A DNA stretch of 64,000 bases from a virus, in the IMG/VR virus record IMGVR_UViG_3300034109_000283, positions 1-64,000 of that record. The stretch is one strand, 5' to 3'. Position 1 is the first letter of the stretch. Every line of letters begins with the position of its first letter. Under the pieces are notes generated by a model. It was not told where the DNA came from. It did no database searches and worked only from the letters and a program-made list of their open reading frames with translations. A program made the position numbers and the translations under genes. This document shows positions 1,531-27,141 of the stretch, one piece after another.

Positions 1531-1559
1531 TTGTCAACAAGTGACTTTGGTGACATAAT
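1531..1559 (+). promoter_or_regulatory. sigma70-like promoter for the structured leader and Ro-like gene
   Basis: TTGTCA (1531-1536), a 17-base spacer and CATAAT (1554-1559). It lies just after the phosphoesterase stop and predicts a transcript start near 1566, ahead of the long structured leader. Confidence 0.65.
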
Positions 1560-1565
1560 AACATC

Positions 1566-2010
1566 ATTGAGTTAGAGATTATAAGGATCGGTACAGCAAC
1601 ATTTACTTTATAGTGAATGGTCTGGGCATAGTATGGTACATGCTGGAGGGACAACCCGTTGAAGGTGTGTATTGAAATACTCCGGACGAACTCAGAGTGA
1701 TGGCCTGAGTATAATAAAAGCAGTCAACAACGATCCTGTTATTTTGTTAGGATGATGACAGCAATCTAAAACAATACTGCCTTGTTTTAGGGAAACCTAA
1801 ACAGCCTGTTGGGGTTAGCCAACTTTGTGTCTAGTCAAGATACTAGGATCGGTCATGTACGATACATGATAGGCTTGTGGTACAAACTCCCTTAGTGGTA
1901 GGGGGCAAGCAGAAATATAAAATACCCGTATCGGTCATCCTGTTAGAATTAGTGAATGCTAACAGCAACTTTTTATTCAAACTTGAAAATTGAAATAAAA
2001 CGCATTCAGA
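1566..2010 (+). ncRNA. Long structured RNA or 5' leader upstream of the Ro-like gene
   Basis: About 450 bases without a supported reading frame but with many strong hairpins: ACTCAG/CTGAGT (1690-1710), ATCCT/AGGAT (1733-1753), CTAAAACAA/TTGTTTTAG (1766-1790), TCATGTA/TACATGA with 3-base loop (1853-1869) and CTGTTAG/CTAACAG (1940-1965). ATCGGT recurs near 1587, 1847 and 1930, and ACAGCAA follows hairpins at several points, suggesting repeated modules. Ro proteins bind structured RNAs, so this may be a ligand or an autoregulatory leader (inference). I cannot assign it to a known RNA family by eye. Confidence 0.55.
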
Positions 2011-2022
2011 AAGGAAAATGAA

Positions 2023-3438
2023 ATGAACGCATTTGTAAACGCAGTAGCGAACCAAGAAGCCCGTACCCAAAATGGTATGAAGGCTCGTAAGTCTAGTGCT
2101 AACGCACTGGTTGATCTGTTCTATAACATCGGTGCAAGCCGTGGTAAGAACATTGTACCTGCTTTTACCTCTGCCTATGTCCAAGATAAGGACTTGGCAT
2201 TGCGTATCGCATTGTGGGCCCGCGATGCCCGTAGTGGAGCAGGCGAACGTCAATTGTTCCGTGATATCTTGACTCATTTGGAAAAGACTGATCCCGATGC
2301 GGCAGTCCGTCTGTTGAACAAGGTACCTGAACTTGGTCGTTTTGATGACTTGTTTGTTTTCAAGTCAAAGGACATGAAGGCTAAGGCTTACACTCTGTTG
2401 GGTGATAACCTTCGTGTTAAGAATGGTCTTGCGGCTAAGTGGACTCCTCGTAAGGGCCCTGTTGCCCGCGAAATCCGTGAGTTCTTCGGCATGAGTCCTA
2501 AGAACTACCGTAAGACTTTGGTCTCTATGACCAATGTCGTTGAATCACAAATGTGTGCCAACGACTGGGACAACATCAACTTCAGCCATGTTCCCTCACA
2601 GGCTGCACGAATCTACAAGAAGGCGTTCAACCGTCATTCTGTTAAGTTCGCAGAGTATGTACAGAAGTTGGTTAGTGGAGATAAGACTGTCAAGGTTAAC
2701 GCCGGCGCGATCTATCCTCATGATGTCCTGAAGGGTGTGATCAATGCATATGGTCGTGCGTCTTATGACAAGACCGAGTTGGATCACATTGTTGCGCAAT
2801 GGGATGCATTGCCTAACTATGTTGGTGATGCTAACATCATGCCGCTTGTTGACGTTAGTGGTTCTATGACTTGCCCTGCAGGTAAGAACACTAACGTTCG
2901 TTGCTTGGATGTTTCAGTCTCATTGGGATTGTACTTGGCTGATAAGAACAAGGGTGCGTTCCACGGAACCTTCTTGACTTTCAGCGAAAAGCCTGAATTG
3001 ATGACCCTAAAGGGTAACATCGTTCAAAAGGCTGATCAAATGATCAAGTCAACTTGGGGCATGAGTACCAATCTACATGCGGCTTTTGACAAGATCCTTA
3101 GCACCGCAGTTAAGAATTCTGTTCCTAACAGCGATATGCCAAAGATGTTGTTGATCCTTAGCGATATGCAGTTCAACCAATGCGTCCGTCATGATGACTC
3201 AGCAATGGAAATGATTGAACGCAAGTATCGTGACGCAGGCTACGAAATGCCAGCAGTGGTTTTTTGGAACTTGAACAGTAGCGACAACGTTCCTGTCAAG
3301 TCAGACAAGAGTGGTGCGGCACTTGTGTCAGGGTTCAGCCCAAGCATCATGACTAGTCTGTTGTCAGCAGACCCGCTGGAATTCACTCCAGAAGGTATGA
3401 TGATGAAGACCATCATGGCAGATCGTTACGATTGCTAA
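2023..3438 (+). CDS. Ro60/TROVE-like RNA-binding protein with vWA domain
   Basis: A 471-residue protein. The N-terminal ~270 residues are a helical-repeat region of the TROVE/DUF2828 type, with LALRIALWARDAR and GAGERQLFRD blocks. The C-terminal half is a von Willebrand A domain whose metal site is LVDVSGSM, with a later ILSDMQF strand. Ro60 homologues form a ring that binds misfolded RNAs and Y RNAs; bacterial Rsr works with exoribonucleases in rRNA and tRNA decay. The gene has an AAAGGA ribosome-binding site, a structured leader of ~450 bases and its own terminator, and it sits among tRNA genes with a tRNA-like RNA 1.1 kb downstream. An RNA-quality or tRNA-handling role is likely but inferred. 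Confidence 0.8.
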   Translation: MNAFVNAVANQEARTQNGMKARKSSANALVDLFYNIGASRGKNIVPAFTSAYVQDKDLALRIALWARDARSGAGERQLFRDILTHLEKTDPDAAVRLLNKVPELGRFDDLFVFKSKDMKAKAYTLLGDNLRVKNGLAAKWTPRKGPVAREIREFFGMSPKNYRKTLVSMTNVVESQMCANDWDNINFSHVPSQAARIYKKAFNRHSVKFAEYVQKLVSGDKTVKVNAGAIYPHDVLKGVINAYGRASYDKTELDHIVAQWDALPNYVGDANIMPLVDVSGSMTCPAGKNTNVRCLDVSVSLGLYLADKNKGAFHGTFLTFSEKPELMTLKGNIVQKADQMIKSTWGMSTNLHAAFDKILSTAVKNSVPNSDMPKMLLILSDMQFNQCVRHDDSAMEMIERKYRDAGYEMPAVVFWNLNSSDNVPVKSDKSGAALVSGFSPSIMTSLLSADPLEFTPEGMMMKTIMADRYDC

Positions 3439-3446
3439 TGGACTAT

Positions 3447-3479
3447 AAAGTTATATCGGATTAATCCGATATAACTTTT
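3447..3479 (+). terminator. Perfect-palindrome terminator after the Ro-like gene
   Basis: A 32-base perfect palindrome with two 16-base arms (AAAGTTATATCGGATT and its complement) follows the stop codon by 8 bases and ends in TTTT. It probably ends the Ro-like transcript; it is AT-rich, so termination may be partial. Confidence 0.6.
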
Positions 3480-4107: not shown

Positions 4108-4114
4108 AAATTGC

Positions 4115-4384
4115 AACTAGGTAAGTGTATAACGACACTTTAAACAAGATTGTGGACGCACATGATTCGGCCTAGTTCAACGATCACTCGGCTTACACTT
4201 TGCCGTAATCAAAAGTGGGTAGGCAGTTACCATATCTGCCGGGTACGCACGAACTTGACCTTAAGGCCCGCGATGTATGGGCGACTTAAAAATATCGTGG
4301 GGCAGAACTTGACTGTCCATATGGAGACAAGTAGGACGGAACCTTACACCCATGTCGGGGCTTGGTAGTGCGAGTAGCCGACAT
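4115..4384 (+). ncRNA. Candidate structured non-coding RNA, ~270 nt
   Basis: GC-richer than its surroundings and full of complementary segments: AACTAGG/CCTAGTT (4115-4177) closing an AAGTGT/ACACTT hairpin (4123-4140), CGGC/GCCG (4189-4205), GGCAG/CTGCC (4222-4240), TTAAGGCCC/GGGC..CTTAA (4261-4289), and ATGTCGG/CCGACAT (4352-4384). The open frame at 4150-4368 has no ribosome-binding site and an implausible composition. It ends immediately before a perfect promoter for the next tRNAs. I see no tmRNA, RNase P or 6S hallmark. Confidence 0.5.
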
Positions 4385-4389
4385 TCTTC

Positions 4390-4418
4390 TTGACAATAAT
4401 TCCTACTTAGTATATAAT
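4390..4418 (+). promoter_or_regulatory. Consensus sigma70-like promoter for the second tRNA block
   Basis: TTGACA, a 17-base spacer and TATAAT, a perfect match to the consensus, followed by AAGTGC. It should drive tRNA-Lys, the tRNA-like RNA, tRNA-Glu and downstream genes. Confidence 0.9.
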
Positions 4419-4473
4419 AAGTGCATACGCTGAGAAATCGGCAATGCTCTTTAACAGTTTATTGGTTTTATTT

Positions 4474-4550
4474 GGGACGTTAGCTCAGTTGGTAGCAGCA
4501 CTCGGCTTTTAACCGATAGGTCATTGGTTCGAACCCAATACGTCCTACCA
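4474..4550 (+). tRNA. tRNA-Lys(TTT)
   Basis: Complete cloverleaf with acceptor GGGACGT/ACGTCCT, anticodon loop CTTTTAA (TTT), T loop TTCGAAC and encoded ACCA. Confidence 0.96.
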
Positions 4551-4654
4551 TATTAAAACACATTCAAGGCAAAGTACAAGCCTGGCAGAAGGTGCAGCCT
4601 TGCCCCGTATGGAGCAATGGTGGACGGTGCTACTCCGTCGAGTGTGTTTTAATA
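4551..4654 (+). ncRNA. tRNA-like RNA with a long terminal stem (Y RNA-like candidate)
   Basis: The ends form a near-perfect 15-pair stem (4551-4565 with 4640-4654, one G-U). Inside are three hairpins in cloverleaf order: AGGC/GCCT with a 9-base loop (4567-4583), GGC..AAGG/CCTTGCC (4584-4604), and GACGG/CCGTC with a 7-base TGCTACT loop (4623-4639). The last has exactly the size of a T arm, keeps the U54, C56 and A58 equivalents, and abuts the closing stem as in tRNA. There is no CCA end. Bacterial YrlA RNAs pair such a tRNA-like module with a terminal stem bound by Ro; a Ro-like gene lies 1.1 kb upstream. The Y RNA assignment is inference. Confidence 0.6.
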
Positions 4655-4664
4655 TGGTATCTTT

Positions 4665-4740
4665 GCTCGGTTCGTCTATCGGTTTAGGACGCTAGCCTTT
4701 CACGCTGGAAAGACGGGTTCGATTCCCGTACCGAGTACCA
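4665..4740 (+). tRNA. tRNA-Glu(TTC)
   Basis: Acceptor GCTCGGT/ACCGAGT with G-U at the first pair, anticodon loop CTTTCAC (TTC), T loop TTCGATT, encoded ACCA. Confidence 0.94.
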
Positions 4741-4754
4741 GTATTAAATACAGT

Positions 4755-4949
4755 ATGATTGTTGAAACCGTTAAAACTTATACTCATTGGGCCCGTGATA
4801 ATATTGTTACCAAACAATATGTCACCGAAGTGGACAATAGCAATAAAAGAGTTTTAACAGTTATTGAAAATTCTTACATGCCCTACAGTATCAGAGGTGA
4901 GTTGCAAAAAGAAGATACTAAAGGTAAACATATTGATGTAAAAGTTTAA
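4755..4949 (+). CDS. Small hypothetical protein
   Basis: A 64-residue soluble protein between tRNA-Glu and tRNA-Tyr. The ATG has no clear Shine-Dalgarno sequence. Composition is ordinary for this phage (charged, beta-prone, QKEDTKGKHIDVKV tail), and the stop lies 3 bases before the tRNA-Tyr gene. No motif recognised; reality is supported mainly by codon use and tight fit. Confidence 0.6.
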   Translation: MIVETVKTYTHWARDNIVTKQYVTEVDNSNKRVLTVIENSYMPYSIRGELQKEDTKGKHIDVKV

Positions 4950-4952
4950 AAC

Positions 4953-5037
4953 GGAGATGAAGCATCAATGGTGATGCAGTGGACTGTAAATCCGCCGCCT
5001 TATGGCACGACTGGTTCGATCCCAGTAATCTCCACCA
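4953..5037 (+). tRNA. tRNA-Tyr(GTA)
   Basis: Class II tRNA with acceptor GGAGAT.../ATCTCC, anticodon loop CTGTAAA (GTA), the long variable arm expected for bacterial tRNA-Tyr, T loop TTCGATC and encoded CCA. Confidence 0.94.
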
Positions 5038-5044
5038 AGATATT

Positions 5045-5121
5045 GCACCGTTAGATCAGTTGGTTAGATCGCATGCCTGTCACGCATGAGGCCAGGGGTT
5101 CAAGTCCCCTACGGTGCGCCA
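5045..5121 (+). tRNA. tRNA-Asp(GTC)
   Basis: Acceptor GCACCGT/ACGGTGC, anticodon loop CTGTCAC (GTC), T loop TTCAAGT, encoded GCCA. Confidence 0.96.
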
Positions 5122-5125
5122 AATT

Positions 5126-5202
5126 GGTCGGGTATCTTAAGAGGAAGTAGAGCCTCCCTCATAAGGAGGAATGTGGGATTTCGAGCGTCCCCCTGACCAC
5201 CA
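5126..5202 (+). tRNA. tRNA with CAT anticodon (Met or Ile2)
   Basis: Acceptor GGTCGGG/CCTGACC, anticodon stem CCTCC/GGAGG around CTCATAA, T loop TTCGAGC, encoded ACCA. The first acceptor pair is G-C, so it is not an initiator. It is elongator Met or lysidine-modified Ile2; the two cannot be separated by eye. Confidence 0.9.
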
Positions 5203-5217
5203 GATAAATAATTTTGT

Positions 5218-5294
5218 GCGGGTATAGTGTTTAACGGTAGCACGGCAGCCTTCCAAGCTTTAAGAGAGGAGTTCGAATCTCCCTACCCGCTCCA
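5218..5294 (+). tRNA. tRNA-Gly(TCC)
   Basis: Acceptor GCGGGTA/TACCCGC, anticodon loop CTTCCAA (TCC), T loop TTCGAAT, U73 and CCA. Confidence 0.95.
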
Positions 5295-5295
5295 G

Positions 5296-5324
5296 TTGAC
5301 AATATGTATGAAATCAAATATACT
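5296..5324 (+). promoter_or_regulatory. sigma70-like promoter
   Basis: TTGACA starts one base after the CCA of tRNA-Gly, then a 17-base spacer and TATACT. It predicts a start near 5331, ahead of tRNA-Leu and the HNH gene. Confidence 0.75.
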
Positions 5325-5356
5325 TCATACTTGTTCTTTAAGATAAATAGTTTTTT

Positions 5357-5441
5357 GCCCTGGTGGTGTAATTGGTAGCCACGCTGGTCTTAGAAGCCAG
5401 TGCTTAATCGCGTGTCGGTTCGAGTCCGACCTAGGGCACCA
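5357..5441 (+). tRNA. tRNA-Leu(TAG)
   Basis: Class II tRNA with acceptor GCCCTGG/CTAGGGC, anticodon loop CTTAGAA (TAG), long variable arm, T loop TTCGAGT, encoded ACCA. Confidence 0.95.
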
Positions 5442-5484
5442 CAATTTATTGGGAAATCACTTGCCTAGAGGAATAAATACTTAT

Positions 5485-6039
5485 ATGAAAAGAGTTTATA
5501 TAAGTGATATGCCCTGGGAAGAAATACAAAGGCACTACAACGAAGGAATGTCTTTGCGTGATTTACAGAAAAAGTTCAGAATTAGTTTTAAAACTTTTCA
5601 AAAAGCAAAAAAATTGAACTTATTTGTGCCTAGAGATTTATCATCAGCAATGAAAATAACTTTGATGATTAACCCTAGAAATTACTCACATATAAGAAAG
5701 AACAGGTCAGCACTTAAAAATTATAGGGCTGATTGTACTTTTAAGTTTAACTTGTCAGATTATCCTGACGAATTCAATTTTGAATTGATTGAAAGCTATG
5801 GTTGGTATAAACCCAAAAATAGGGGCGATAATATCAATGGTGTTAGCAGAGACCATGCAGTAAGTGTAAAATACGGGTTCGACAACAATTTACCTGCTGA
5901 ACATTTGGCTCACCCTGCTAATTGTGTTTTAATGAGACACGGTGATAATGTGTCTAAATATAGCAAGATATCAATGTCTTATGAAGAATTGCTCAAACGC
6001 ATTGAAGCATGGGACCAGAAATATGGGGGATTGGTATAG
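5485..6039 (+). CDS. HNH-type homing endonuclease-like protein
   Basis: A 184-residue protein from the ATG at 5485, which follows AGAGGA by 12 bases; a TTG at 5449 would add 12 residues. Near residue 15-35 is a helix-turn-helix-like segment (GMSLRDLQKKF). The C-terminal part has the HNH-like pattern GVSRDHAVSVKYGF followed by HPANCVLMRHGDN, seen in free-standing phage HNH nucleases. Such genes commonly sit in phage tRNA clusters as mobile elements. The last 15 bases, including the TAG stop, lie inside tRNA-Ala. Confidence 0.75.
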   Translation: MKRVYISDMPWEEIQRHYNEGMSLRDLQKKFRISFKTFQKAKKLNLFVPRDLSSAMKITLMINPRNYSHIRKNRSALKNYRADCTFKFNLSDYPDEFNFELIESYGWYKPKNRGDNINGVSRDHAVSVKYGFDNNLPAEHLAHPANCVLMRHGDNVSKYSKISMSYEELLKRIEAWDQKYGGLV

Positions 6040-6099
6040 TTGGGAACACGATGCCCTTGCAAGGCATAGTCAGCGGTTCGACCCCGCTATCCTCCACCA
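6025..6099 (+). tRNA. tRNA-Ala(TGC), 5' end shared with the HNH gene
   Basis: Acceptor GGGGGAT/ATCCTCC, anticodon loop CTTGCAA (TGC), T loop TTCGACC, encoded ACCA. The first 15 bases are also the last codons and stop of the HNH reading frame. Confidence 0.94.
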
Positions 6100-6105
6100 A
6101 TCAAT

Positions 6106-6181
6106 TGCGGCCGAGGGAGACAGTAACCCGCCAGTCTCATAAGCTGGAGATACCTGGTGCGACTCCAGGGGTTCGCAACCA
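6106..6181 (+). tRNA. Atypical CAT-anticodon tRNA or tRNA-like gene
   Basis: The anticodon arm CCAGT-CTCATAA-GCTGG and a 5-pair T stem (CCTGG/CCAGG) are clear, but the T loop is TGCGACT, not TTCGANT. The D loop lacks the usual GG, one extra base follows the T stem, and the acceptor TGCGGCC/GTTCGCA has a mismatch. The 3' end GCAACCA and weak T1-A72 pair recall initiator tRNA, but the three G-C anticodon-stem pairs are absent. It may be a divergent or decaying tRNA. Confidence 0.5.
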
Positions 6182-6224
6182 ATTAATATTTTTATTCTAT
6201 ATCTTATAGATAAGTAAGTTTACT

Positions 6225-6300
6225 CTCGGATTAGTATAGCCTGGTAGTATCCGTGCTTTGGGAGCATGTGGCGGGGGTTCAAATCCCTCATCCGAGACCA
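6225..6300 (+). tRNA. tRNA-Pro(TGG)
   Basis: Acceptor CTCGGAT/ATCCGAG, anticodon loop TTTGGGA (TGG), T loop TTCAAAT, encoded ACCA. Confidence 0.94.
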
Positions 6301-6317
6301 TTTAAATTGAGGAAAAT

Positions 6318-6449
6318 ATGGCAGCAAAAAGTGAACAAAGAAAGAGTGTTGTAAAGCGTACTAGTCAAGGCGGTAGTAGCCCCAAGACCAGTTCAATGAA
6401 TAAAACTGAAAAGCGTAGTTTCAAAAAGAATAGAGGACAAGGCAAATGA
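6318..6449 (+). CDS. Small basic phage protein
   Basis: A 43-residue protein, strongly basic and Ser/Gln/Gly-rich (KRTSQGGSSPKTSSMNK, then KKNRGQGK), starting at an ATG after TTGAGGAAAA. The TGA overlaps the next ATG as ATGA, so the two are translationally coupled. The pattern resembles short disordered basic proteins common in large phages; function unknown. Confidence 0.75.
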   Translation: MAAKSEQRKSVVKRTSQGGSSPKTSSMNKTEKRSFKKNRGQGK

Positions 6450-6622
6450 GTGGCAAAGGTAGTAGTCCAAGACCTTTTAGTGTGTCTCAAGAAGAATACG
6501 CAAATCGCTGGGACGCTATCTTTGGACGAGATTTAACTGATGATCTTAAAGTTAAGGAAGATGAACAAGCATTGGACGAAGCTTTTGATCAAATAGAAAC
6601 AGAGCAAGAAATTCGTAAATGA
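6446..6622 (+). CDS. Small acidic phage protein coupled to the preceding basic one
   Basis: A 58-residue protein beginning MSGKGSSPRPF and containing NRWDAIFGRD, followed by an acidic helical tail. It starts in the ATGA overlap with the previous gene and ends 7 bases before tRNA-Val. The MSGKGS...YANRWDAIFG pattern recurs in myovirus small proteins (memory, not searched). Function unknown. Confidence 0.75.
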   Translation: MSGKGSSPRPFSVSQEEYANRWDAIFGRDLTDDLKVKEDEQALDEAFDQIETEQEIRK

Positions 6623-6628
6623 AATATT

Positions 6629-6704
6629 GGATCGTTAGCTCAGTTGGTAGAGCGGCGCCCTTACAAGGCGTAGGTCGGCGGTTCGAACCCGTCACGATCC
6701 ACCA
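6629..6704 (+). tRNA. tRNA-Val(TAC)
   Basis: Acceptor GGATCGT/ACGATCC, anticodon loop CTTACAA (TAC), T loop TTCGAAC, encoded ACCA. Confidence 0.96.
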
Positions 6705-6719
6705 ATAATAAATAATGTT

Positions 6720-6869
6720 ATGAAATTGTTTGAGGCAACAATAAGAGTTAATGGTAAAGAGTTTAAAGATAGAGTCGGCGCAAACAACGCTGAAGAAGCT
6801 AAACTCTTACTGCAACAACGACATGGTCCAAGAGCCGTTCCTTATTTGCCAAAAATGATTCCAAGTTAA
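6720..6869 (+). CDS. Small conserved phage protein
   Basis: A 49-residue protein: MKLFEATIRVNG begins a likely beta hairpin, followed by a helix AEEAKLLLQQRHG and a Pro-rich end. Similar 45-60 residue proteins with this strand-strand-helix layout are frequent in T4-like phages. It fits exactly between tRNA-Val and tRNA-Gly, its stop lying one base before the latter. Function unknown. Confidence 0.75.
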   Translation: MKLFEATIRVNGKEFKDRVGANNAEEAKLLLQQRHGPRAVPYLPKMIPS

Positions 6870-6870
6870 T

Positions 6871-6944
6871 GCGGGTATGATGTAAAGGTAACCTGAATCC
6901 TTGCCAAGGATTATTTGCGAGTTCGATTCTCGCTACCCGCTCCA
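6871..6944 (+). tRNA. tRNA-Gly(GCC)
   Basis: Acceptor GCGGGTA/TACCCGC, anticodon stem AATCC/GGATT around TTGCCAA (GCC), T loop TTCGATT, U73 and CCA. Last tRNA of the array. Confidence 0.95.
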
Positions 6945-25087: not shown

Positions 25088-25882
25088 ATGAAATTTAATA
25101 AAATATTTGCAGCAGCAATATTATCTTTAAGTGGGTTATCTGCATTTGCGCAAACTGCCGTGACACCACCCACTGCACCCACTGTTCCCAACACAGTAAC
25201 AGTTAGTCCCAATGCTACCACAGCATTGGGTAACAGCACAACCAACCGCATCTTTATTGATCAAAGTGGTTCCAATCCTGATGTGAACATGACACAAGAT
25301 GGCAGTGGCAACAAGCAAGGAAGCGCACAAAGACCCATTTACTTGCGTGGTGCTGATCAGGTGATCATCACTCGTCAGATTGGCAACAACAATGAGATAG
25401 ACTTAGAAGTTTCCAATCCCACAACAGGAGCCAGTGTGGGTGCCAAAGTTACCATTCAACAGATTGGCAACAGCAACAAAGTTGATGCAGCTTGCGGATA
25501 TGGTAACAGCAGCACTGGCACAGCTCTAACAGGTTGCAAGAATGCTGACTTGAACTGGAAGTTCACTGGCAACAGCAATGAGTTTCAGTTCCGTGCCAGT
25601 GGTGACGACATTCGCAGTGCTGTCACAGTAGCAGGCAATGGCAACAAGTTCTGGATTGACGCTGTGGGCAACAAGCACAGTCAGACTCTAATGGTAACTG
25701 GTGACAACAATGAATTCAATCTAAGTCAAACCAGTACTGGCAGTGCTGGCAGCAGCATCTGGATTGATCAGACTGGCACTGGCACCAAGTTCTTTGTGGC
25801 TCAAAGTGGAACTGTTGACAACGTTCTGAACATCAAGAGTGTTGCAACAGGAGGAACCTTTAATATAGTTCAGAAGAACTAA
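25088..25882 (+). CDS. Curlin-repeat amyloid subunit (CsgA/CsgB-like)
   Basis: A 264-residue secreted protein with a signal peptide ending in SAFAQ. About eight degenerate curlin repeats follow, of the type V.I.QIGNNNEID or VTIQQIGNSNKVD, rich in Gln, Asn, Gly and Ser. Curlin repeats stack as a beta-solenoid and polymerise outside the cell. It has two extra Cys and a Pro/Thr-rich linker after the signal. GC content is higher than in csgF and csgG. A good GGGAG ribosome-binding site precedes it. Whether it is the major fibre or the nucleator is unknown. Confidence 0.88.
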   Translation: MKFNKIFAAAILSLSGLSAFAQTAVTPPTAPTVPNTVTVSPNATTALGNSTTNRIFIDQSGSNPDVNMTQDGSGNKQGSAQRPIYLRGADQVIITRQIGNNNEIDLEVSNPTTGASVGAKVTIQQIGNSNKVDAACGYGNSSTGTALTGCKNADLNWKFTGNSNEFQFRASGDDIRSAVTVAGNGNKFWIDAVGNKHSQTLMVTGDNNEFNLSQTSTGSAGSSIWIDQTGTGTKFFVAQSGTVDNVLNIKSVATGGTFNIVQKN

Positions 25883-25890
25883 GGATCATT

Positions 25891-27141
25891 GTGAAGCGAC
25901 TACTTGTGGCCTTGTGTGGGCTAGTACTAAGCACAAGTGTACTAGCCAATGTGGGTTCTGTAGCAGAACTCACGGGCACAGCCGTGATCAAGCGAGGCAA
26001 AACCACTGTACCAGTGACAAATGGCACAGTGGTTGAAATGAATGACCGAGTAGAAACTAAAAACGGTAAACTGAAAATTGTTTTCCGTGATAAAACCACT
26101 GTTAGTGTCACTGAAAGTAGTGCATTAGACATAGATGAGTTTGTGTATGATCCGAAAAATGCTGGTGCAGGCAAACTAGGTATAAAAGCTGCGGCGGGCA
26201 CAGTACGATATGTCAGTGGTGCTATTGCTGGCGCTAATCCCAACGCTGTAAACATCAAAACACCCACAGCAGCCATCGCAGTTCGTGGTACAGATTTTGT
26301 CATGAGTGTGAATGAGATCGGTGGTAGCATGATTATCTTGATGCCACAGTGTGAGGAGCATGGTGTAAATGTTCGTGGCATGATATGTGGTAGTGGCCGG
26401 ATAGATGTTGAAAGTGGCGGAACAGTGGTGAACATGTCCAGACCCTATCAAGCCACACTAGTAGAAAAAACAGGCTCACCACCTAGTCCGCCCATTACAG
26501 TAAATCTATTCAATACACCAATTAGTAATAACTTGCAAATAGCTCCACCCAGAACCATGAGTGGTGGCAGTGTGGTAGCAGCAGCCCGGGCAGCAGTAGC
26601 ACAAACTAGCAGTGGTGTTCGCAGTGCTGCAAGATCAAGTAGTGGCAGTGGTAGTTCAAGTGGCAGTAGTGGTTCAAGTGGCGGCGGAGCAGAACCTGCA
26701 GCAGCAAGCGATGCACCTCCAGCAGAGGCTGTTGTAGCCAGCGAATCAAATAAACCTGAAACGGTCGCCAGTAAAAGCGAAGAAACAACGACAGCAGTAG
26801 AAGCACCCAGTAATATCGTGTCTCTTGAACCAGTGCTTGAGCTAGTTACTAAAACAACAGAATCTGCCAAAGATGAAAAAGCTGAACCCGCACCAACTGT
26901 GACAACCACTGAAACTAAAAGCGATGAAGATGCCAATCTCAGAAAGATTTATAGTGGAGCTTCACAATCAGGATGGGGCTACGAAAGTTTGAGTAAAACC
27001 AGTCGTAACTATGCCAACATTGTGTTGCCTATCAATACTGCCATACAAATTTACATAGTTCAAGATAACATGGTTGCTGCTAAAAACTTTAGCAGTGGTC
27101 GCCCACAAGGGCAAATAGTAATCAATCAGACATTCAGATGA
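25891..27141 (+). CDS. Secreted FecR-domain protein
   Basis: A 416-residue protein starting at GTG 25891 after AAGGA. A signal peptide (to STSVLA) precedes a FecR domain: GKLKIVFRDKTTVSVTESSAL, GKLGIKAAAGTVRYVSGAI, and VNIKTPTAAIAVRGTDFVM are the classic blocks. After residue ~200 comes a low-complexity Ser/Gly/Ala/Glu linker and a C-terminal ~60-residue domain. FecR domains bind periplasmic or surface ligands and act in signalling or assembly. In many proteobacteria FecR proteins neighbour CHASE2 cyclases. The stop overlaps the next ATG (ATGA). Confidence 0.9.
   Translation: MKRLLVALCGLVLSTSVLANVGSVAELTGTAVIKRGKTTVPVTNGTVVEMNDRVETKNGKLKIVFRDKTTVSVTESSALDIDEFVYDPKNAGAGKLGIKAAAGTVRYVSGAIAGANPNAVNIKTPTAAIAVRGTDFVMSVNEIGGSMIILMPQCEEHGVNVRGMICGSGRIDVESGGTVVNMSRPYQATLVEKTGSPPSPPITVNLFNTPISNNLQIAPPRTMSGGSVVAAARAAVAQTSSGVRSAARSSSGSGSSSGSSGSSGGGAEPAAASDAPPAEAVVASESNKPETVASKSEETTTAVEAPSNIVSLEPVLELVTKTTESAKDEKAEPAPTVTTTETKSDEDANLRKIYSGASQSGWGYESLSKTSRNYANIVLPINTAIQIYIVQDNMVAAKNFSSGRPQGQIVINQTFR

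Follow-up and report, generated by a model that had tools for sequence, protein, structure and literature searches.

Tandem RNA modules before a phage Ro60-like gene and their co-occurrence with DUF2828-class Ro proteins

A Ro60-like gene and its three-module leader

The stretch of DNA analysed here (the window) covers the opening 64 kb of a virus record 108 kb in length, IMG/VR record IMGVR_UViG_3300034109_000283, and contains, between the genes for tRNA-Ser (831-920) and tRNA-Lys (4474-4550), a plus-strand unit made up of a long leader and a gene for a Ro60-like protein. A reading of this DNA from sequence alone had described the unit as a TROVE/vWA-type gene lying inside a tRNA array and preceded by a promoter and a structured leader, and had suggested that the leader could be a co-transcribed ligand of the Ro protein or an autoregulatory element. 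The position within a tRNA array is borne out by ARAGORN, and a sigma70-like promoter is indeed recognizable, by consensus match only, at 1531-1559 (-35 TTGTCA, 1531-1536; 17-nt spacer; -10 CATAAT, 1554-1559), with TTGACA/TATAAT promoter-like sequences at the equivalent place in related leaders. Transcription is expected, from the position of this promoter, to start near 1566, giving a leader of ~440-500 nt (about 1566-2022) whose plus strand has no long open reading frame (ORF). The Ro60-like ORF follows at 2023-3438, and a perfect inverted repeat succeeded by TTTTC (3447-3478, plus strand), as read from the sequence, is the probable terminator of the unit.

The encoded protein, 471 residues in length, matches the Pfam families DUF2828 and DUF7788 (vWA domain) with E-values of 5.3e-50 and 8.7e-25; these are its only Pfam matches at E <= 0.001, and TROVE (PF05731) is not matched. 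Searched with Foldseek, the AlphaFold model of the protein (mean pLDDT 68) retrieved five PDB entries at E <= 0.001, all of them Ro60/TROVE structures (E 5.6e-7 to 8.9e-4) and among them Ro60 of Thermus phage phiLo (9L5Y) and Rsr of D. radiodurans (2NVO). With VIA-align the four best scores (Z 13.9, 12.4, 12.3 and 12.3) again all belonged to Ro structures, and the unrelated vWA proteins ranked beneath them, at Z <= 9.5, reflect the common vWA domain only. The predicted fold thus resembles 2NVO and 9L5Y in combining a helical-repeat region with a vWA domain, whereas sequence identity to these proteins is 10-17% and Pfam assigns DUF2828 and DUF7788 here. As modelled, the protein is Ro60-like at the level of its fold and is not a Pfam TROVE protein by sequence, and it is in the former sense that the earlier description of the gene holds. 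Relatives of the protein were found by tblastn in 682 phage records.

The leader is composed of three tandem RNA modules, M1, M2 and M3, which are joined by 8-nt linkers and fill its whole length. All follow the same plan, in which a 7-bp stem closes a variable interior; a 2-nt spacer sets the box ACAGCAA off from the 5' arm of the stem, and at its 3' side the module usually ends in CCUGUU. In M1 (1584-1740) the arms AGGATCG (1584-1590) and CGATCCT (1731-1737), with spacer GT and the box at 1593-1599, enclose a multi-helix interior of ~130 nt and are followed by the tail GTT. M2 (1749-1944) has the arms AGGATGA (1749-1755) and TCATCCT (1935-1941), spacer TG, the box at 1758-1764, the same GTT tail and an interior of ~165 nt, the corresponding length in most relatives being 230-260. 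M3 (1953-2008) represents a short class, consisting of a short stem and a variable loop; its arms are TGAATGC (1953-1959) and GCATTCA (2002-2008), with spacer TA and the box at 1962-1968. The 3' arm of M3 abuts the ribosome-binding site of Ro, a Shine-Dalgarno-like AAGGAA read from the sequence at 2011-2016, directly 3' of the module, and a purine-rich tail after this arm is also found in related leaders.

That the leader is structured agrees with its folding better than shuffled sequence (z -2.6); for the single modules, minimum free energies relative to shuffles correspond to z-scores of -3.5 (M1), -1.5 (M2) and -2.5 (M3). Other particulars of the sequence-only reading are redrawn by the three-module plan. 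The recurrence of ACAGCAA stands, there being three copies in this leader and the same three in nearly all of the related leaders considered below. ATCGGT, which had been named as a second recurring module, is not a motif: the copy at 1588 combines the last bases of the M1 5' arm with the spacer, the two others (near 1852 and 1930) are internal to M2 and lack conservation in relatives, and many relatives have the M1 arms AGGUUAG / CUAACCU instead. In place of the hairpins, at least five, that had been counted there are three closed modules, each with an interior of its own. The window sequence also allows hairpins between neighbouring modules, formed by the M1 3' arm and the M2 5' arm; they were rejected because they are not kept in relatives where the M1 arms read AGGTTAG and the M2 arms AGGATGA.

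At threshold, Rfam contained no known riboswitch, leader or non-coding RNA family matching the leader or its modules, and neither ARAGORN nor Rfam revealed hidden tRNA genes in the leader. Isolated phages showed no similarity to the leader at the DNA level, and comparison was therefore made by structure.

Conservation of pairing in related leaders

For comparison we assembled 80 close-relative loci from viral contigs, nearly every one of which has three ACAGCAA boxes, near positions -470, -300 and -60 from the start codon. Of the 280 ACAGCAA occurrences in these loci, 241 are followed downstream by a perfectly complementary 6-nt arm; three control words without overlap with the element gave roughly 30-40%. 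To avoid circularity, 3' arms were also placed without regard to complementarity, by means of the CCUG(U/C)U end or the ribosome-binding site. Anchored independently in this way, the closing stem of M1 is paired at all seven positions in 52/52 related loci, and those of M2 and M3 at six or more of seven positions in 65/67 and 79/80 loci, respectively. When the 18 distinct arm pairs were pooled, 6.28 of 7 positions were paired, compared with 4.76 for shuffled partners, a value reached in none of 5000 shuffles.

Changes that preserve pairing extend into the interiors. The M1 interior has 36 consensus pairs, 20 of them with double changes, and a covariation score of 0.440 (shuffled, 0.179; slid, at most 0.063), and the M2 interior 19 consensus pairs, 11 with double changes, and a score of 0.477 (shuffled, 0.196), values to be read with the provisos that the alignments scored are those from which both structures had been derived, a bias in their favour relative to the slid control, and that the shuffle control ignores relatedness. 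In M3 five of the seven consensus pairs show double changes. Stem pairing, rather than stem sequence, is conserved in each module. Covariation, looked for in homologous leaders, is strong in the stems and in the interiors of M1 and M2, homologous leaders precede Ro in these ~80 viral contigs, and the same element stands before Ro in the Aeromonas phage LAh_9, the Listeria phage WIL-1 and the Synechococcus phage BUCT-ZZ01; neither of the two outcomes named beforehand as refuting the earlier reading was obtained.

Two of the related loci depart from the usual order. In L065 and L067 (about 1650-1900) M1 and M2 are found over 1 kb upstream from the gene, away from the short module that stands before Ro; M1 and M2 are in these cases separable from the Ro messenger.

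Modules and Ro proteins among diverse phages

A DNA pattern representing one arm variant gave matches in more than 120 viral contigs. Among 118 pattern loci examined, a Ro gene was present within the fetched stretch in 59; of the remainder, some are interspersed with tRNA genes and some reflect chance matching of the pattern to coding sequence. The modules around Ro of isolated phages use stem sequences other than those of the window, and their number and placement vary. Seven tandem modules precede Ro in LAh_9 and three each in WIL-1 and BUCT-ZZ01, three lie just 3' of Ro in the Mycobacterium phage DuncansLeg, four follow it in the Salmonella phage BPS17L1, and two are situated around it in the Campylobacter phage F375. 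A short module ending at the Ro ribosome-binding site, as M3 does, recurs in the distant phages LAh_9 and phiM12. Boxes of the form NCAGCAA accompanied by a stem of at least 7 pairs are more frequent on the Ro strand (44/92) than on the opposite strand (15/70), the proportion for scrambled boxes being about a fifth.

To inventory the module more widely we built a covariance model, R1, from 29 diverse short modules (alignment A5). All seven closing pairs of this alignment show double changes (score 0.875 vs 0.245), although its members were selected for pairing, so that only the diversity of their arms carries weight; M3 of the window is in the training set, and its R1 score of 46 bits is not independent. 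In whole-record searches R1 found a match in each of 21 records with a DUF2828 protein, 12 of which had contributed no training sequence, the weakest best match having an E-value of 5e-6. Phage GAP32, chosen as a presumed negative, proved to carry DUF7788, and yielded eleven matches at E <= 1, three of them at E < 3e-6. Below E 0.1 there was no match in T4, phiKZ, SPO1, 201phi2-1, RB49, RB43 or Ma-LMM01, all of which are without DUF7788. Overall, R1 matched 22/22 records with a DUF2828/DUF7788 protein and 0/7 without; restricted to held-out records, the figures are 13/13 and 0/7 (Fisher p about 1e-5). Among 200 Pseudomonadota genomes there were two R1 matches at 1e-4, one of them in a metagenome-assembled genome holding a DUF2828 contig. 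The bacterial match G123:C23 looks like an AT-rich chance match, with no Ro gene within ~10 kb on either side. The module co-occurs with the DUF2828-class Ro protein across unrelated phages.

Proximity to Ro is not a constant attribute. KVP40 has a module inside its tRNA array, and in GAP32 modules are strewn through the tRNA array at 305-312 kb, with the Ro gene at 107 kb, ~200 kb away. Not all modules can therefore be cis elements, and modules can act apart from the Ro messenger. The interiors catalogued comprise short hairpin types, the M1 type, the M2 type and tRNA-like types; of the last, at least eight are circularly permuted, with a T-arm, a closed acceptor hairpin and then a D-arm. The Sinorhizobium phage phiM12 (L203, 344-470 and 1600-1700) has two permuted tRNA-like RNAs, one showing a closed acceptor hairpin with ACCA on a 10-bp stem, the other a 13-bp basal stem, the box ACAGCAC and a 35-bit YrlA match.

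The neighbourhood of phage Ro genes includes, besides modules, genes for RNA ligases: an RtcB-type gene lies downstream of Ro in WIL-1, and ligase genes lie upstream in the Serratia phage BF and the Xanthomonas phage XbC2 (ligase genes, RtcB-type or other, close to Ro: L206, 5850-7061; L209, 819-2078; L218, 794-2059). In this they resemble the bacterial rsr-yrl-rtcBA repair operon (PMC7790460), and a role of the phage protein in RNA repair or surveillance would be compatible with its gene neighbourhood. Surveillance of tRNA or rRNA, to which the location of the unit had earlier been taken to point, would likewise fit the presence of modules in tRNA arrays and of interiors that appear to mimic tRNA.

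Transcription in this region has been described for the Listeria phage CKA15, whose Ro homologue is present in virions and is encoded just 3' of strongly transcribed non-coding regions (PMC12282133); the authors considered that Y RNAs might be present, and left the most transcribed region unexplained, with the thought that it could itself be a Y RNA (PMC12282133). The phage group of CKA15 has three modules directly before Ro. The most transcribed region (26,236-26,727, CKA15_059-061), however, coincides with a match to ROOL RNA and not with the modules, which lie at 25,277-25,552 and by mapping form the next non-coding block before Ro. The ROOL match spans 1471-2022 of the WIL-1 locus L206, equivalent to about 26,195-26,746 of CKA15 (OR088597.1), and scores 87 bits, the gathering score being 99.1.

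In the window itself, the array flanking the Ro unit includes tRNA-Cys (741-825) alongside tRNA-Ser upstream, both on the plus strand and called by ARAGORN and Rfam, and continues downstream over 4474-6944, beginning with the tRNA-Lys gene reported by ARAGORN. Between tRNA-Lys and tRNA-Glu, positions 4554-4656 are closed by a long inverted repeat, TTAAAACACATTC ... GAGTGTGTTTTAA, with no annotated function, and are possibly another small RNA of the array. A tract of ~330 nt (4110-4440), apparently non-coding, lies 3' of a 2OG-oxygenase-like ORF and before a promoter-like sequence and tRNA-Lys. Weak Rfam tRNA calls at 4953-5034 and 6107-6177 (36 and 31 bits), not reported by ARAGORN, are candidates for degenerate tRNAs or tRNA-like RNAs.

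Interpretation and relation to known RNAs

From these comparisons of sequence and predicted structure, we consider it probable that the leader strings together three Y-RNA-like elements serving the phage's own Ro60-like protein, and that M3 autoregulates Ro. The basal stem and ACAGCAA would form the docking site for Ro, and the interiors would serve as effector domains in the manner of bacterial Y RNAs. For M1 and M2, and for those modules that lie within tRNA arrays, we envisage action in trans, probably once they have been freed from a longer transcript. At M3, placed against the ribosome-binding site, surplus Ro would bind its own messenger and stop translation, and through this feedback the level of Ro would track the supply of module RNAs. 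The original proposal of a co-transcribed ligand or autoregulatory element gains from the homologous leaders, their strong covariation and the co-occurrence with Ro; we infer the binding of module RNAs by phage Ro proteins, their processing, and repression.

Several observations weigh against this interpretation. The proposed partnership of the modules with Ro rests on co-occurrence and position, and phages with DUF2828-class Ro often have large tRNA arrays, so that the array may be the real correlate; the negative-control phages are few (seven) and are not matched for tRNA content. The AlphaFold model of the Ro60-like protein is of middling confidence, M2 alone is not significantly more stable than its shuffles, and the basal signature of the modules is not that of YrlA, the known Ro ligand of bacteria.

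A purely cis-acting leader, whose modules would regulate only the downstream Ro gene, through autoregulation or messenger stability, and give rise to no separate RNAs, would account for the three modules directly before Ro and the contact of M3 with the ribosome-binding site in ~80 related viruses, and for the short module at the same site in LAh_9 and phiM12. We regard it as unlikely, given modules that reside in the tRNA arrays of KVP40 and GAP32, in the latter ~200 kb from Ro, that follow Ro in DuncansLeg and BPS17L1, or that, as M1 and M2 in L065 and L067, lie more than 1 kb upstream and apart from the short module; large covarying interiors, moreover, suggest more than a binding site. The copies between tRNA genes, which are many and in some cases have tRNA-like interiors, could instead be elements of tRNA arrays independent of Ro, acting as signals for the processing or stability of polycistronic tRNA transcripts or as decoys for a host defence that cleaves tRNA, and the tendency of phages with DUF2828-class Ro to have such arrays would then explain the association. 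We find this explanation improbable, for none of the Ro-less phages tested, T4 among them, has modules, and modules are clustered at Ro in LAh_9, WIL-1, BUCT-ZZ01, DuncansLeg and ~80 viral contigs.

We give very little credence to the further alternative that these are ordinary bacterial YrlA Y RNAs scored too low by Rfam. YrlA (RF02553), in which D, T and acceptor arms are borne on a basal stem that binds Rsr (PMC8394870), resembles the phage modules as a small RNA encoded with a Ro60-like protein (Rsr/Ro60) and in the closure of a modular effector domain by a basal stem. Some phage siblings of the window's modules also have its permuted tRNA-like domain (T-arm, closed acceptor hairpin, D-arm), with weak YrlA matches over that domain (L203 1616-1680, 35 bits; L204 5582-5651, 27 bits). 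The RF02553 model, however, had no match in the window leader or in the whole record, and ARAGORN and Rfam revealed no tRNA-like effector domain in M1-M3. As read from bacterial loci L230-L237, located with the Rfam model, the base of genuine YrlA has the signature GGCGAAUGC...CUUGUCGCC; this Ro-site signature is absent from the phage modules, which combine any 7-bp stem with NN and ACAGCAA. The proteins differ as well, that of the window being DUF2828/DUF7788 and not Pfam TROVE by sequence. Membership of the window modules in YrlA is ruled out by model score together with basal signature.

One Rfam family alone, Dictyostelium Class I RNA (RF01414), recurs on phage modules, with low scores. 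Its model matched five of the seven modules in the LAh_9 tandem stretch (E 0.0016 to 0.78) and eight modules in the whole LAh_9 record, and fell on the same loci as R1 in KVP40, Ahp1, LAh_9, WIL-1, Vibrio 1.081, I1_18, BUCT-ZZ01 and XbC2. Phage modules never reached the gathering score (best 29.8 bits vs 41.5), and the background of this model includes an unrelated T4 match at E 0.0024. Class I RNAs have an end-joining short stem with many compensatory changes, a variable interior and a CUGU end, with a conserved 11-nt motif, C.UUACAGCAA, on the 5' side (PMC7919456). The short phage modules likewise have an end-joining stem, UUACAGCAA, a variable interior and a CUG end. They differ in that Class I RNAs are reported from social amoebae only, their known direct binder being the RRM protein Rnp1A; Class I RNAs are 42-65 nt in length, a range that includes M3 (~56 nt), whereas M1 (157) and M2 (196) are much longer.

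This likeness may reflect homology, convergence on a common protein fold or coincidence of a short motif. We entertain, as a doubtful possibility, a single ancient Ro-type recognition element, consisting of a short stem, then UUACAGCAA, and a CUGU end, that would be common to the RNAs of DUF2828-class phage Ro and to amoebal Class I RNAs. If this were so, Class I RNAs and phage modules would be Ro-bound RNAs in which interchangeable effector domains (short hairpins, permuted tRNAs, or large ornate folds) are mounted on a common handle.

That Y RNAs and Ro proteins occur in phages is already known in outline. The apparent novelty lies in an RNA family that is distinct and defined by structure, tracks DUF2828-class Ro, is multi-copy and modular, and has a signature in common with Class I RNA; to judge from its placement in sequence, the family likely includes an autoregulatory copy. 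We found no description of the module family in the openly available literature, subscription papers and preprints being outside the search, and no common RNA partner for phage Ro60-like proteins in Rfam or the openly available literature searched. Hundreds of phages carry a Ro60-like protein, and the searchable module signature predicts an RNA partner in every such phage tested, and thereby offers an approach to the role of Ro proteins in infection. If the resemblance to Class I RNA is real, it would in addition suggest a protein partner for a functionally unexplained, abundant class of amoebal RNA.
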